Source: Dehalococcoidia bacterium (GTDB lineage Bacteria > Chloroflexota > Dehalococcoidia > GIF9 > AB-539-J10). From it: DNA of 9,928 nucleotides. The position numbers were made by a program, and so were the translations under genes. The notes beneath the pieces are model-generated. The model searched no databases, was not told the origin of the DNA, and saw only the letters and a program-made list of their open reading frames with translations. This document shows, piece by piece, positions 4,110 through 9,179 of this stretch (position 1 is the stretch's first letter; every line of letters begins with the position of its first letter). The stretch lies in assembly GCA_030669525.1 (NCBI GenBank), contig DAOVDO010000024.1, forward strand, positions 1-9,928, given 5' to 3'.

Positions 4110-4185
4110 GGGCCGTTAGCTCAGTTGGCAGAGCACCTGACTTTTAATCAGGGTGTCGTGGGTTCGAATCCCTCACGGCCTACCA
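4110..4185 (+). tRNA. tRNA-Lys(UUU)
   Basis: A full cloverleaf is visible. The acceptor stem GGGCCGT (4110-4116) pairs with ACGGCCT (4175-4181), with a G-U first pair. The D-loop is TAGCTCAGTTGGCAGAGCA. The anticodon stem CCTGA/TCAGG (4136-4140/4148-4152) encloses loop CTTTTAA with anticodon TTT at 4143-4145. The T-arm contains GGTTCGAATCC. The discriminator is A4182 and CCA is encoded at 4183-4185. The foreign istA fragment begins immediately after the CCA, so the tRNA 3' end is a junction point. Confidence 0.97.
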
Positions 4186-4528
4186 GACAGTGCTTCTGGG
4201 CCAGCAACTCCTGAATCCGGGTAAGCTTCAGCCGATCAGCCTTGAGCCACTGCTCAACCTGGTCAGCCCAGGGCTCAAGCACCTCGTTGGTGGGTACCGC
4301 TACCTGATGCGGGCCGGCTTTGTTCAACTGTACCATGGTAATCAGTTGAGACTCGCCTAAGGGTGGCCCATCATGCACCAGACCACAGCTTTTTGCCGTC
4401 AGAATGTACTTTCGAATCGTGTTGCGGGCCAGTCCGGTTGACCTCGTTATTTCTCGGATGCCACGACCTGCCTGACATTGTCTTACTACTTCTGTAATCT
4501 CCACTCGGGAAACCTCCTTGTATGCCAT
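4148..4528 (-). pseudogene. istA: Truncated IS21-family transposase IstA (N-terminal fragment)
   Basis: The N-terminal 114 or so residues match the start of an IS21-type IstA, the DDE transposase that acts with the ATPase IstB. A helix-turn-helix lies at about residues 19-41 (GIREITRSTGLARNTIRKYI), followed by the usual linker and the segment LTRIQELLAQK. The catalytic DDE core and all of istB are missing; a whole IstA has some 400-500 residues. IS homology stops at base 4186, and the last dozen codons (ending GREGFEPTTP) are simply the antisense of tRNA-Lys, so the frame's stop at 4148 is accidental. I prefer ATG 4528 over GTG 4534 because AAGGAG lies five bases before the ATG but overlaps the GTG. 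The fragment cannot transpose on its own. Confidence 0.85.
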
Positions 4529-4662
4529 TGCCACTCCTTTCTAATAAGTCTGCGGCAATGGTAGCTTATTTTTTTCCGGGTGGGTCAAAGATCCTGGTTA
4601 AGGTGGGTCAATGTTGGTGGTTAAAAGCCTGTTTTCTGGGTCAAAGTTTGTGGTTTTTCACA
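4186..4662 (-). mobile_element. IS21-family insertion sequence remnant (left end plus 5' istA)
   Basis: The remnant runs from the tRNA-Lys CCA end to an apparent IS terminus near 4662, which on the minus strand begins TGTGAAAAACC, a TG-starting end as is normal for IS21 relatives. It holds the 5' part of istA, about 130 bp of terminal region and three transposase-site-like repeats. The other end and istB are absent from the window. The outer boundary is placed from the end sequence alone and could be off by a few bases. Confidence 0.7.
4582..4656 (+). repeat. Three imperfect 19-bp terminal repeats of the IS21 remnant
   Basis: Copies at 4582-4600 (GGGTCAAAGATCCTGGTTA), 4605-4623 (GGGTCAATGTTGGTGGTTA) and 4638-4656 (GGGTCAAAGTTTGTGGTTT) share GGGTCA at one side and TGGTT at the other. 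Offsets are 23 and 33 bp. Multiple internal repeats near the tips are characteristic of IS21-family ends, where they bind IstA. Confidence 0.75.
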
Positions 4663-5092: not shown

Positions 5093-6829
5093 ATGGATAA
5101 CGCAACATATTCTCCTCAGTATTCATCAAGTCATGCCCTTGTCATAGGCATAAACGACTACCAGTCTGCTGCCCCGTTGGGCTATGCGATAAATGATGCA
5201 GAGGCAATTGCCCAACTCCTTATTGACAAGTTTGGTTTTGATGGAGAGAATGTTCTCTTGCTTACTGATGCGAACGCGACCAGGGCCCGTATCATAGATT
5301 CCTTTCTCTCATACGCGAGTAAGTCCGATGTAAATGACAGGATACTCTTTTTCTTCGCCGGACATGGGTATACTGTTTCTGGTCGCCGAGGCGAAGTCGG
5401 ATTATTAGTACCTTACAATGGCGAACCACGAAACCTATCCACGCTCATTAGATGGGATGAACTAACGAGAAATGCAGAGCTGATACCGGCTAAGCATGTG
5501 CTCTTTGTGATGGACGCATGCTACGGCGGACTTGCGATCACACGGCCATTGGCACCTGGTAGCATGCGATTCCTCAAGGACATGCTGTTGCGGTACTCTC
5601 GCCAAGTGCTCACCGCAGGTAAAGCCAATGAAATCGTAGCTGATGCTGGTGGTCCCATACCCGGTCATTCCGTTTTCACTGGACATTTTATTGAGGCGCT
5701 TGAAGGTAAAGCAGCAAGCGGGGATGGAATAATCACTGCAAATGGTGTAATGGCATATGTCTATGAACGCGTTGCAAGAGACCAACAATCACACCAAACC
5801 CCTCATTATGGGTTCATTGATGGCGATGGCGATTTAATTTTCAAAGCACCAATACTCGACTCACCCAGGAAGGAGGAAGAGAAGGATGAAGACATGCTTA
5901 TAGCCGTTCCTTCCTCTATGCCAATGGCGAATATAGGTGCATCAGGAAACGTAGTCAATGTGACAAAGGAGTATCTCTCAGATAGTCGCTACACAATTAA
6001 GCTTCATGACCTAGTCGTTCAGGAACTGCGAGAGGTTCTACTTCAAACATCTGAAGACAATTTCGTGGTTCAGGGTATCAACTGGTCACTTCAGGAATTC
6101 ACATGCCGACTTAAGGAGTACGAGCGGATAGTTGATGATTTGCTACGTATCCTATCCTGTATTGCCTACTGGGGGAAGCAGGAACATCTAACAATGCTTA
6201 AGATGGCATTGATGCGTTTGACAGATCGGCTAGAAACGAAGAGCGGTCTCGCTGTTTGGCAGGCTCTGCGCTGGTATCCCACTATGCTCCTTTTCTATGG
6301 GGCGGGAATTTCAGCATTAGCATCTGACAGATACGACAATCTAGCCGCAATATTGTTGACTAGGGTTGGATCCTCGCGTTCCGCTACCTCCTCGACTCCA
6401 CTTACCCTTGCGATCGGTGAAGCCACTACAAAGCTGCATGACATGTTCAAACAACTTCCAGGCCATGAGCGCCAATATGTCCCTCGTAGCGAATATCTAT
6501 TCAAACTACTTCAGCCAACTTTGGACGACCTATTATTCTTAGGGCGAAATTACGAGCAGGACTTCGATCGATTTGAAGTGTTATTGGCTTTAGTTCATGC
6601 TGATTTGGAATCCAAGGAGTCACGTGGTATCTGGGGCCCTCCTGGAAGATTCGGCTGGAAATTCCACCATTATGATGTAAATCCCTTAAAAGACCTTATC
6701 GCTGATGCAAACGGACAAAAGGAATCATGGGGCCCACTTAAAGCAGGGCTGTTTGGAGGAGATTACACTCGCTTTGGAAAAATCGCTAGTGAATACACTA
6801 CACTTATCACACGTCTAAACTGGTTTTAG
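5093..6829 (+). CDS. Caspase-like (peptidase C14/metacaspase-type) protein with large C-terminal module
   Basis: This is a 578-residue cytosolic protein without signal peptide or clear membrane helix. Residues 14-250 form a caspase-fold domain: HALVIGINDY (14-23), the strand-plus-histidine motif FFFAGHGYT with His91, and the cysteine motif VMDACYGG with Cys143, so the catalytic dyad is intact. By family knowledge, prokaryotic relatives cut after Arg or Lys. A Lys/Glu-rich linker (259-267) leads to a mostly helical module at about 295-578, including ALRWYPTMLLFYGAGISALA (391-410), DRYDNLAAILL and DRFEVLLALVHADL (492-505). I recall similar YPxLLLxYxxGxxA...RYDxLAALL modules behind other N-terminal effector domains in bacterial proteins; this is memory, not a search. 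The architecture suggests a sensor-effector of defence or regulated death. Start ATG 5093 is forced by an in-frame TGA just upstream. Confidence 0.88.
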   Translation: MDNATYSPQYSSSHALVIGINDYQSAAPLGYAINDAEAIAQLLIDKFGFDGENVLLLTDANATRARIIDSFLSYASKSDVNDRILFFFAGHGYTVSGRRGEVGLLVPYNGEPRNLSTLIRWDELTRNAELIPAKHVLFVMDACYGGLAITRPLAPGSMRFLKDMLLRYSRQVLTAGKANEIVADAGGPIPGHSVFTGHFIEALEGKAASGDGIITANGVMAYVYERVARDQQSHQTPHYGFIDGDGDLIFKAPILDSPRKEEEKDEDMLIAVPSSMPMANIGASGNVVNVTKEYLSDSRYTIKLHDLVVQELREVLLQTSEDNFVVQGINWSLQEFTCRLKEYERIVDDLLRILSCIAYWGKQEHLTMLKMALMRLTDRLETKSGLAVWQALRWYPTMLLFYGAGISALASDRYDNLAAILLTRVGSSRSATSSTPLTLAIGEATTKLHDMFKQLPGHERQYVPRSEYLFKLLQPTLDDLLFLGRNYEQDFDRFEVLLALVHADLESKESRGIWGPPGRFGWKFHHYDVNPLKDLIADANGQKESWGPLKAGLFGGDYTRFGKIASEYTTLITRLNWF

Positions 6830-7196: not shown

Positions 7197-7424
7197 TCAA
7201 ATAAGCACTATACTTACTATTCCAAGGATAAGTCCTATCATCAAACCCATTTTAGTAAGTGAGTATCGTTTGTTCAACCGTTGACATTTAAAAATCCTCT
7301 TTATACTTACTGCGAGTTTACTAAAAGAGTTATCCTGGTCCTCAGGGTCAGTAAATCCTATCCATGCAGCAACTGTGAATACCAATAAGCTCAATAACGA
7401 TAATACCTTCACCAAACAAATCAT
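7197..7424 (-). CDS. Small two-helix membrane protein, 75 aa
   Basis: I do not recognise the family. One hydrophobic helix spans about residues 4-24 (VLSLLSLLVFTVAAWIG), then a polar loop starts acidic (DPEDQD, 26-31) and becomes strongly basic (K42, R43, K46, R49, K52, R53). A second helix lies at 58-75 and ends at the C-terminus. The basic loop suggests an inside loop with both termini outside. I place the start at ATG 7424 rather than ATG 7439 because GGAGGT lies seven bases before 7424 and would itself be coding if 7439 were used. An extended -10 sits about 40 bp upstream. It faces the caspase gene convergently. A membrane partner or toxin-like role is possible but has no direct support. 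Confidence 0.6.
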   Translation of the reverse strand: MICLVKVLSLLSLLVFTVAAWIGFTDPEDQDNSFSKLAVSIKRIFKCQRLNKRYSLTKMGLMIGLILGIVSIVLI

Positions 7425-7465
7425 TTCTGCGACCTCCATGTGCGTTAAGATTAATTGCCTAGTCC

Positions 7466-7916: not shown

Positions 7917-9179
7917 GTGAAAAGAGTACATAATAGTGACCTTATGTTTTTAGCAAGCACAGCAATGAAATTTGCTGAGCTTCCGCCTGAAGAAGACATC
8001 TACCAGTTTATAGGAGAGCAGCTAAGAGAACTCACTGGCAACTCTATTGTTGTCATAAGTTCGTTTGATGAAGTGTCTAATAGCTTCTGTGTCCGATCAA
8101 TTGTGGGAATTGGACAGCACATGGACGCTTTTCTTGAGACTATGGGACGACACCCTGTTGGAATGACTACCTCGATAAATGACAAAGCAAGACTTGGGCT
8201 CATCAGTGGCAAGCTGGTGAAAGTCCCTGGAGGCCTGTATGAATTTTCTTTTGGGGAAATACCAAATTCCGTTTGCCATGCGATTGAGCAGCTTCTTGAT
8301 TTAGGTGACATATATGATATTGGTTTTACCTGGAAAGGAAAATTATTTGGCAGCGCCGCCATCCTTACACGCAAGGGAACTAAATTGGAGAATCCAAGCG
8401 TTATAGAGACATTTATAACCCAGGCATCGGTAGCACTGCAGCGCTGGCAGGCAGAGAAGGCATTACAGCAGGCTAGTGACGATTTAGAAATGAAGGTAAG
8501 GAAGCGAACTGCGGAGCTAACAAAAGCTAACGAAGCACTACGGGTTGAGATCACCAAGCGCAAGCGGACAGAAGAGGAACTCAAACAGACCACAGAGAAG
8601 CTGCTAAAGGCCTTGGAAGACACCATCCAAGCCATGGCTATGATAATCGAAATGAAGGATCCCTATACTGCCGGTCATCAGCGACGGGTAACTCAACTTG
8701 CCAACGCCATAGCCAAGAAGATGGGCCTTTCAGAAGATCAGATTAGTGCACTCCACTTGGCTGGACTCATTCATGATGTCGGCAAGGTACATATACCTGC
8801 TGAGATTCTCGCCAACCCTAATGGGTTATCTGAAGCAGAATTCAGCATCATTAAGACACATCCGTCAGTCGGCTACGAAATATTGAAGGCTATAGAATTT
8901 CCATGGCCCATTGCCCAAATTGTGCATCAACATCATGAAAGGGTGGATGGCTCGGGGTATCCTTTAGGTCTATCAGGTGAGGATATTCTTCTGGAAGCAA
9001 GAATCTTAGCTGTCGCTGATGTTGTTGAAGCTATGTCCTCTCACCGACCTTACCGACCAGCTTTGGGTATAGATAAGGCTTTGTCAGAAATTACACAAAA
9101 GAAAGCTGTTCTTTATGACGCCAACGTGGTGGACACTTGTCTATGGCTTTTTACCGAGAAGTCGTTTAAGTTTGAGTGA
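7917..9179 (+). CDS. GAF - coiled coil - HD-GYP domain protein (probable c-di-GMP phosphodiesterase)
   Basis: This 420-residue cytosolic signalling protein has an N-terminal GAF-like sensor at about residues 8-176, a helical linker (about 177-235, with RKRTAELTKANEALR and KRKRTEEELKQ typical of signalling coiled coils) and a C-terminal HD-GYP domain from about 238. Metal and signature residues are present: H254 in TAGHQRRV, HDVGK (286-290), H315, H339, HERVDGSGYP (340-349) and D368 in VADVVEAM. It should therefore hydrolyse cyclic di-GMP under control of a ligand bound by GAF. There is no receiver or membrane domain and no GGDEF partner in the window. The C-terminal tail is complete. The start is GTG 7917, with only a weak GAGAT-like site upstream; ATG 7944 is an alternative that would trim nine residues. 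Confidence 0.93.
   Translation: MKRVHNSDLMFLASTAMKFAELPPEEDIYQFIGEQLRELTGNSIVVISSFDEVSNSFCVRSIVGIGQHMDAFLETMGRHPVGMTTSINDKARLGLISGKLVKVPGGLYEFSFGEIPNSVCHAIEQLLDLGDIYDIGFTWKGKLFGSAAILTRKGTKLENPSVIETFITQASVALQRWQAEKALQQASDDLEMKVRKRTAELTKANEALRVEITKRKRTEEELKQTTEKLLKALEDTIQAMAMIIEMKDPYTAGHQRRVTQLANAIAKKMGLSEDQISALHLAGLIHDVGKVHIPAEILANPNGLSEAEFSIIKTHPSVGYEILKAIEFPWPIAQIVHQHHERVDGSGYPLGLSGEDILLEARILAVADVVEAMSSHRPYRPALGIDKALSEITQKKAVLYDANVVDTCLWLFTEKSFKFE

Follow-up and report, generated by a model that had tools for sequence, protein, structure and literature searches.

A caspase-fold protease joined to a widely shared helical module in a Dehalococcoidia bacterium, a candidate single-gene defence system

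The window (the whole stretch of 9,928 nucleotides that was analyzed) contains a gene in which a caspase-fold protease is followed by a linker and a long helical module (Table 1). To the left of this gene lies the remnant of an IS21-family transposase, matched by the transpos_IS21 profile with an E-value of 3.9e-8 and 33 bits, which is under the cut-off of 160. Three related 23-nt direct repeats at 4579-4657 resemble IS21 end repeats, and no second copy of the tRNA-Lys end is present within the window. Among the window's six scanned neighbours, Pfam reveals no obvious match to a defence family. An 80-aa ORF on the minus strand (7197-7439), located downstream of the caspase gene, shows two hydrophobic stretches by eye and has no Pfam match, and further along is an HD_5-domain (HD-GYP-like) gene (7917-9179), the N-terminal ~170 residues of which are unassigned. 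Besides the window, there is a second tRNA-adjacent case: in the phylum of a Paenibacillus relative, a caspase-module gene (L078:8881-10686) ends about 50 bp from a tRNA-Ala gene.

Table 1. Positions of the described features, counted from the first letter of the window.
Feature	Position	Strand	Basis or remark
tRNA-Lys(TTT), left edge of stretch	4110..4185	+	ARAGORN
IS21-family transposase, N-terminal remnant; frame enters the 3' end of the tRNA-Lys gene	4151..4534	-	NCBIfam transpos_IS21
Whole gene, 578 aa: caspase-fold protease, linker and ~290-aa shared helical module	5093..6829	+	
Caspase (Peptidase_C14) domain, residues 14-238	5132..5806	+	
Catalytic His91	5363..5365	+	kept in 108/108 full-length sequences including the window
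Asp141 and catalytic Cys143	5513..5521	+	kept in 108/108 full-length sequences including the window
Poorly conserved linker, residues ~258-285	5864..5947	+	pLDDT <50 at 258-265 and 273-285; mean conservation 0.54
Helical module shared with other proteins, residues ~288-578; corresponds to PADLOC PDC-S65, C-terminal half	5954..6826	+	PADLOC profiles, helical model

The N-terminal domain is a caspase-fold (C14) peptidase with predicted proteolytic activity. The Peptidase_C14 profile scores 64.4 bits against a curated Pfam cut-off of 21.4, and both the His/Cys dyad and the caspase fold are present. The preliminary description of this DNA had claimed an intact His91/Cys143 caspase domain, which is borne out by the invariance of the active-site residues among the full-length sequences, and its observation that this protease is attached to a separate, sensor-like helical module is likewise confirmed. 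Asp141 presumably occupies the S1-pocket position of metacaspase-type proteases.

Pfam and NCBIfam profiles do not match the C-terminal half at E ≤ 1. Its likeness is to the C-terminal half of PDC-S65, a PADLOC candidate: residues 288-574 match PDLC05061 with an E-value of 4.6e-50 (PDLC05060, 3.8e-37) and align to positions 308-588 of the 592 in the PDC-S65 model. Full-length matches to this model carry SIR2 at the N-terminus (L047, residues 2-578 over model positions 16-587, and L030), where the window protein has its caspase domain. As the window match begins only at model position 308 and leaves out the SIR2 part, the window protein is not placed in PDC-S65. When predicted alone, with nine sequences as input, the module adopts a helical fold (pLDDT 84.4, pTM 0.88), for which a comparison with the PDB gave no significant match, the nearest, weak ones being helical repeats. 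In an alignment of 22 sequences across the partner types described below, at least 90% conservation is found for the Y-P pair of RWYP and for a Y and a G that closely follow it, together with a Pro, the DRFE Glu and the G of GRFGWK. The three sequence blocks noted earlier in this region are conserved motifs, but each occurs in a single copy and they are not repeats.

Relatives were obtained from a pattern scan of 84,980 species genomes, which gave 12 loci, from samples of whole genomes, from plasmids and from a set of 5.8 billion proteins. The last gave 868 matches at E ≤ 0.001, and among the best 120 of these the N-terminus is a caspase Pfam domain or has no assignment, the latter mostly in shorter proteins; a further search of the same set gave 180 matches, of which the best 120, partly overlapping the first set, were considered. 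By Pfam and PADLOC, the module is fused to seven N-terminal types: caspase, SIR2_2 (L047, E 5.2e-11; L030, below the Pfam cut-off yet a full-length PDC-S65 match), AAA_31/ParA (L009, 4.4e-7), TIR_2 (cyanobacterial L040, 2.7e-21; L110 on a Rhodococcus plasmid, 3.8e-20), Pkinase (L049 and L077, about 2e-50), DUF4062 (L043, 6.1e-10; L042, below the cut-off but matching PADLOC PDC-S60 at 7.8e-25) and SEFIR/bSEFIR (L114, with Pfam TIR_2 at 1.3e-21, SEFIR at 7.9e-15 and PADLOC bSEFIR at 1.5e-72). Since TIR, SEFIR and DUF4062 are related folds, these seven partner types represent five superfamilies. Homology of the module itself was verified for the distant members, by BLASTP for the cyanobacterial TIR fusion (E 4e-22) and by hhalign for the DUF4062 (L043, 97.8%), kinase (L049, 98.5%), SEFIR (L114, 99.9%) and Rhodococcus TIR (L110, 99.1%) proteins. 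Similarly, BLAST of the N-termini of the 65 proteins used for the tree below returns the assigned type for 27/27 SIR2, 19/19 caspase and 3/3 DUF4062 rows, counts that include the reference rows. For the N-terminus of the Rhodococcus TIR row BLAST found no hit, and its type was assigned from Pfam. The proposal that the C-terminal module is common to other effector types is therefore upheld. From the set of effectors that had been anticipated on it, protease, TIR and ATPase were found, along with SIR2, SEFIR, DUF4062 and kinase, whereas no nuclease-module fusion was present among the relatives gathered from genomes, plasmids and the protein set. The module is neither restricted to orthologues in core loci nor a match to a metabolic domain.

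An all-against-all BLAST of the neighbouring genes covered 41 loci, including 15 of the caspase type, of which L007 has little flanking sequence; no gene recurs next to the caspase, SIR2 or TIR forms. Isolated pairs that were detected, among them an epimerase (window and L005), a membrane protein (L011 and L064), integrases and response regulators, lie mostly several genes away and at differing places. A different arrangement is found in cyanobacteria, where at four of four loci (L071-L074) the module gene is directly followed, on its own strand, by a member of one family of 285-294 aa, the module gene being a DUF4062-module fusion in three and lacking DUF4062 in L071. This downstream gene is identified as ThsA_Macro by Pfam for L072 (7.4e-56) and as ThsA by PADLOC for L072 and L074. 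To judge from these matches, the pair could be a Thoeris-like system with a Swarozyc-type NADase. In a Terriglobia MAG (L009:8294-10876), a TIR_2 gene (1.3e-9) is situated directly upstream of the ParA-module fusion. Together, the DUF4062/ThsA-macro loci and the TIR_2 gene beside the ParA fusion indicate that the module probably works in two-gene arrangements as well. The earlier suggestion of a one-gene system consequently holds for the caspase, SIR2 and TIR forms, which have no conserved adjacent gene, but not for the cyanobacterial DUF4062 form, probably not for the single ParA fusion, and not for the lone modules described below.

The setting of these genes was assessed in the 15 genomes whose contigs had room for a control stretch. 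Up to four genes per side were taken from a simple ORF caller (≥100 aa), giving 119 neighbours, which were set against 120 control genes at other places on these contigs. At E ≤ 1e-20, PADLOC families number 28 among the neighbours versus 5 among the controls, these being counts of families, several of which can match one protein. The neighbour families, in the 25 of 28 considered, include QatA-D, PtuA/B, ThsB, ThsA-macro (2 members), LmuB, Hhe, PDC-S37, PDC-S60, MkoA, PifA, REase_II and mad3, and both ThsA-macro genes belong to DUF4062 pairs. The five control families are three models of type II methyltransferases, one restriction enzyme and mad3, the last with 3 members. For the caspase form, 28 families were counted among 95 neighbours of 14 loci, the window included and with no separate control; 11 of the 25 considered come from one L002 methyltransferase, DndA/SspA and RTasMBL resemble housekeeping enzymes, and REase_II, PDC-M48B, PDC-S39, SspH and TIR-effector models are also matched. 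In L002, two genes lie upstream of the caspase form, one for a type III methyltransferase (E 9.9e-132) and one that weakly matches a type III restriction enzyme (1.2e-10). From these counts, an enrichment of defence genes looks clear beside the module family as a whole and is modest beside the caspase branch alone. The defence-island setting foreseen in the preliminary description thus applies to the 15 genomes, in which neighbours exceed controls, and less to the caspase loci, and the window itself has no recognizable defence neighbour.

The distribution of the module family is patchy. Matches were found in 42 of 1975 genome look-ups without the centre genomes, which had been chosen for having the gene, and in 51 of 1984 with them; A2, A3 or A6 served as queries, part of the genomes were examined two times, and a few matches are fragments or near the threshold (for example G1273, at 9.6e-4). 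These counts are lower bounds because the search scored only some first-look candidates. The phyla sampled, as inferred from the names of the centre genomes, were Chloroflexota, Pseudomonadota, Cyanobacteriota, Acidobacteriota, Bacillota, a deltaproteobacterial one and an archaeal one, the last with a match in 9 of 196 genomes. The SIR2 form matches 45 plasmid records, 30 of them at ≥80% coverage, and three Rhodococcus plasmids carry TIR-annotated matches, of which one (L110) was verified. The caspase form has one match in the plasmid collection, on a 1.3-Mb Pseudoalteromonas replicon. No match to the window module was found in 50,697 phage records; L047 matched three of these, all in the SIR2 part and none at 80% coverage. 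Viral contigs scanned with the module, A1, P0127 and L047 yielded no confirmed match.

The module also occurs on its own. Of 109 new proteins (P0121-P0229), 56 consist of the complete module preceded by no more than 32 residues, 39 carry caspase sequence and 10 are cut inside the module, in a search that admits proteins of about 160-515 aa and so favours lone modules, some of which may be miscalled starts. These 56 proteins are 292-325 aa long, 51 begin with Met, and several have common leader peptides of their own. A genomic lone module (L029/L062) adjoins a DUF4062 gene and has a TIR gene near; at L062:5995-9943, a DUF1883-TIR gene, a DUF4062 gene and the lone module gene lie within 4 kb. 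A quick IQ-TREE analysis of 65 rows, in which the root is not fixed and the TIR, kinase, SEFIR and L062 rows have long branches, recovers a clade of 30 rows (support 100) that holds 19/19 caspase rows, nine of the ten lone modules, the ParA fusion and P0147. All 27 SIR2 rows fall outside this clade, in several groups, and well-supported branches force at least five changes among the ten lone rows. The simplest reading of the effector swaps visible on this tree would be that SIR2 came first, with one change to caspase followed by splitting and by one ParA swap.

Several known systems bear comparison with this architecture. DUF4062 proteins are described as TIR-like NADases forming the single-gene antiphage system Swarozyc, the auxiliary domain of which binds the phage portal (2026 preprint, PMC13174449), and SpbK as a TIR protein activated by a phage portal (PMC12847820). 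As is proposed for the window protein, both combine an executioner and a sensing domain in a single protein, both act by abortive infection, and their DUF4062 and TIR domains are of the kinds that are also partnered with the module. They differ in that the executioner of the window protein is a protease, and in that the Swarozyc auxiliary domain is described as helix-turn-helix/winged. A caspase-like protease is also the executioner of type IV Thoeris, as cited in PMC12847820, where the TM-macro protein ThsA is the type II effector; no TIR gene is present among the window's nine scanned ORFs, with the contig ending at 9928. In the two-gene EACC1-caspase systems, as described in PMC7159879, the caspase is likewise followed by a further domain; there the caspase is constant, the C-terminus varies and a membrane EACC1 gene is present, whereas in the window family it is the effector that varies, in front of a constant C-terminus. 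The NCBIfam profile caspase_w_EACC1 gives the window protein 84.4 bits, below its cut-off of 140, and the protein is thus not placed in these systems. No gene recurs beside the 15 caspase-type loci (BLAST E 1e-6, ORFs ≥60 aa), a search in which a very diverged short EACC1 gene could be missed. EADs resemble the module in being one non-catalytic domain common to many effectors (PMC7159879, PMC8195603), but are described there as small, whereas the module has ~290 residues and no Pfam match. What is already known comprises the SIR2 form, as a PADLOC candidate, and all of the effector types. A literature search that covered few subscription papers found nothing on PDC-S65, and the literature covered holds no phage assay of the caspase-module architecture. 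Nor did this search yield a description of the caspase form, the effector range, the lone module or the pairing of DUF4062-module with ThsA-macro.

Taken with the partners, the homology of the module and the enrichment among neighbours, these comparisons support the earlier interpretation of a shared sensing or assembly module in a candidate defence system. The caspase-module gene is probably a single-gene abortive-infection system, with the module as an interchangeable receptor. The occurrence of the module behind these executioners, and upstream of ThsA-macro in the DUF4062 loci, is the reason for reading it as the infection-sensing or assembly part. In such a mechanism, the C-terminal ~290 residues would detect infection, or assemble upon a trigger, and would thereby bring the caspase domains together or free them. 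The Cys/His protease, which probably cuts after basic residues, would then cleave cellular proteins and halt phage production by the infected cell, making the caspase version a one-gene protease suicide switch. The same module would serve as an exchangeable receptor behind SIR2, TIR, SEFIR and DUF4062 domains (destroying NAD+ or producing a signal), a kinase and a ParA-like ATPase. In this scheme, cell death, the role against phages, sensing, activation through oligomers and basic P1 specificity are what we infer. SpbK and Swarozyc, both triggered by a phage portal, are precedents for a single-gene effector with its own phage sensor, and type IV Thoeris is one for caspase-like execution. One finding counts against a fast-evolving phage sensor: inside the caspase clade, the module (mean conservation 0.68) is little less conserved than the protease (0.77), with the linker at 0.54. 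This degree of conservation would also fit an assembly or small-ligand domain. Also weighing against the antiphage reading are the window's lack of an obvious defence neighbour, the modest signal beside the caspase loci, and the absence of the module from the phage records and of a confirmed match from the viral contigs scanned.

The module might be an oligomerization scaffold only, with sensing left to another factor or to the effector domain. The helical predicted fold, with helical repeats as its nearest weak matches, and the motifs conserved across distant members are consistent with this idea, and lone module proteins could serve as adaptors. In the caspase, SIR2 and TIR loci, however, the partner domains are unrelated and there is no conserved adjacent gene, indicating that in these proteins the module is the likeliest sensor, and a pure scaffold is therefore unlikely. 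Slightly less probable still is that the module is the receptor for a nucleotide signal made elsewhere, and not the primary infection sensor. The caspase-like effector of type IV Thoeris is switched on by a TIR-made cADPR isomer, according to PMC12847820, and TIR effector models pick out at least one of the genes neighbouring the caspase-type loci. Against this stand the lack of a TIR gene among the nine ORFs scanned in the window and of a conserved neighbour at the 15 caspase-type loci. Furthermore, the module is also present on likely signal makers (TIR and DUF4062), which makes a nucleotide-receptor role less likely, and in the DUF4062 loci the separate ThsA-macro gene is the expected signal reader, so that a receptor on the signal maker would be superfluous. 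Bacterial caspase-fold proteins are not all defence genes, and two of the three close Chloroflexota relatives (L001 and L003) lie among ordinary-looking genes, by eye, but a role in regulated proteolysis or programmed death for stress or development is highly improbable given the patchy spread over phyla, the presence of established phage-defence effectors among the partner domains, the plasmid-borne SIR2 and TIR forms, and the defence families found in the neighbourhood.

Extending the reading of the module as an interchangeable receptor to the whole family is more tentative, and we rate it as slightly less likely than not. The module may be a general, as yet unnamed infection receptor of bacteria and archaea, placed on executioners of seven or more types (a protease, several NADase-type domains, a kinase and a ParA-like ATPase), feeding a Thoeris-like macro effector through DUF4062 and also free-standing, with a caspase branch that would have arisen once from SIR2-type ancestors and was later split or swapped again. 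If this is true, a single receptor module accounts for a set of candidate systems for which present catalogues record the effector only, or nothing, and whether the same phage feature is recognized by one sensor grafted to different executioners becomes a testable question. Bacterial caspase immunity would gain a single-gene protease pathway in the caspase form, and the pairing of DUF4062-module with ThsA-macro would tie the new Swarozyc-type NADases to Thoeris-type signaling.

Three further proteins or loci of the family are of note. P0147 has a ~207-residue N-terminus without a Pfam or PADLOC match joined to the module, which may be another effector. In P0165, the module is joined in frame to a Maf domain (PF02545), which may reflect recent recombination or a chimera of the assembly. 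In an archaeal genome (L088), two SIR2-module genes are adjacent in tandem on the same strand.
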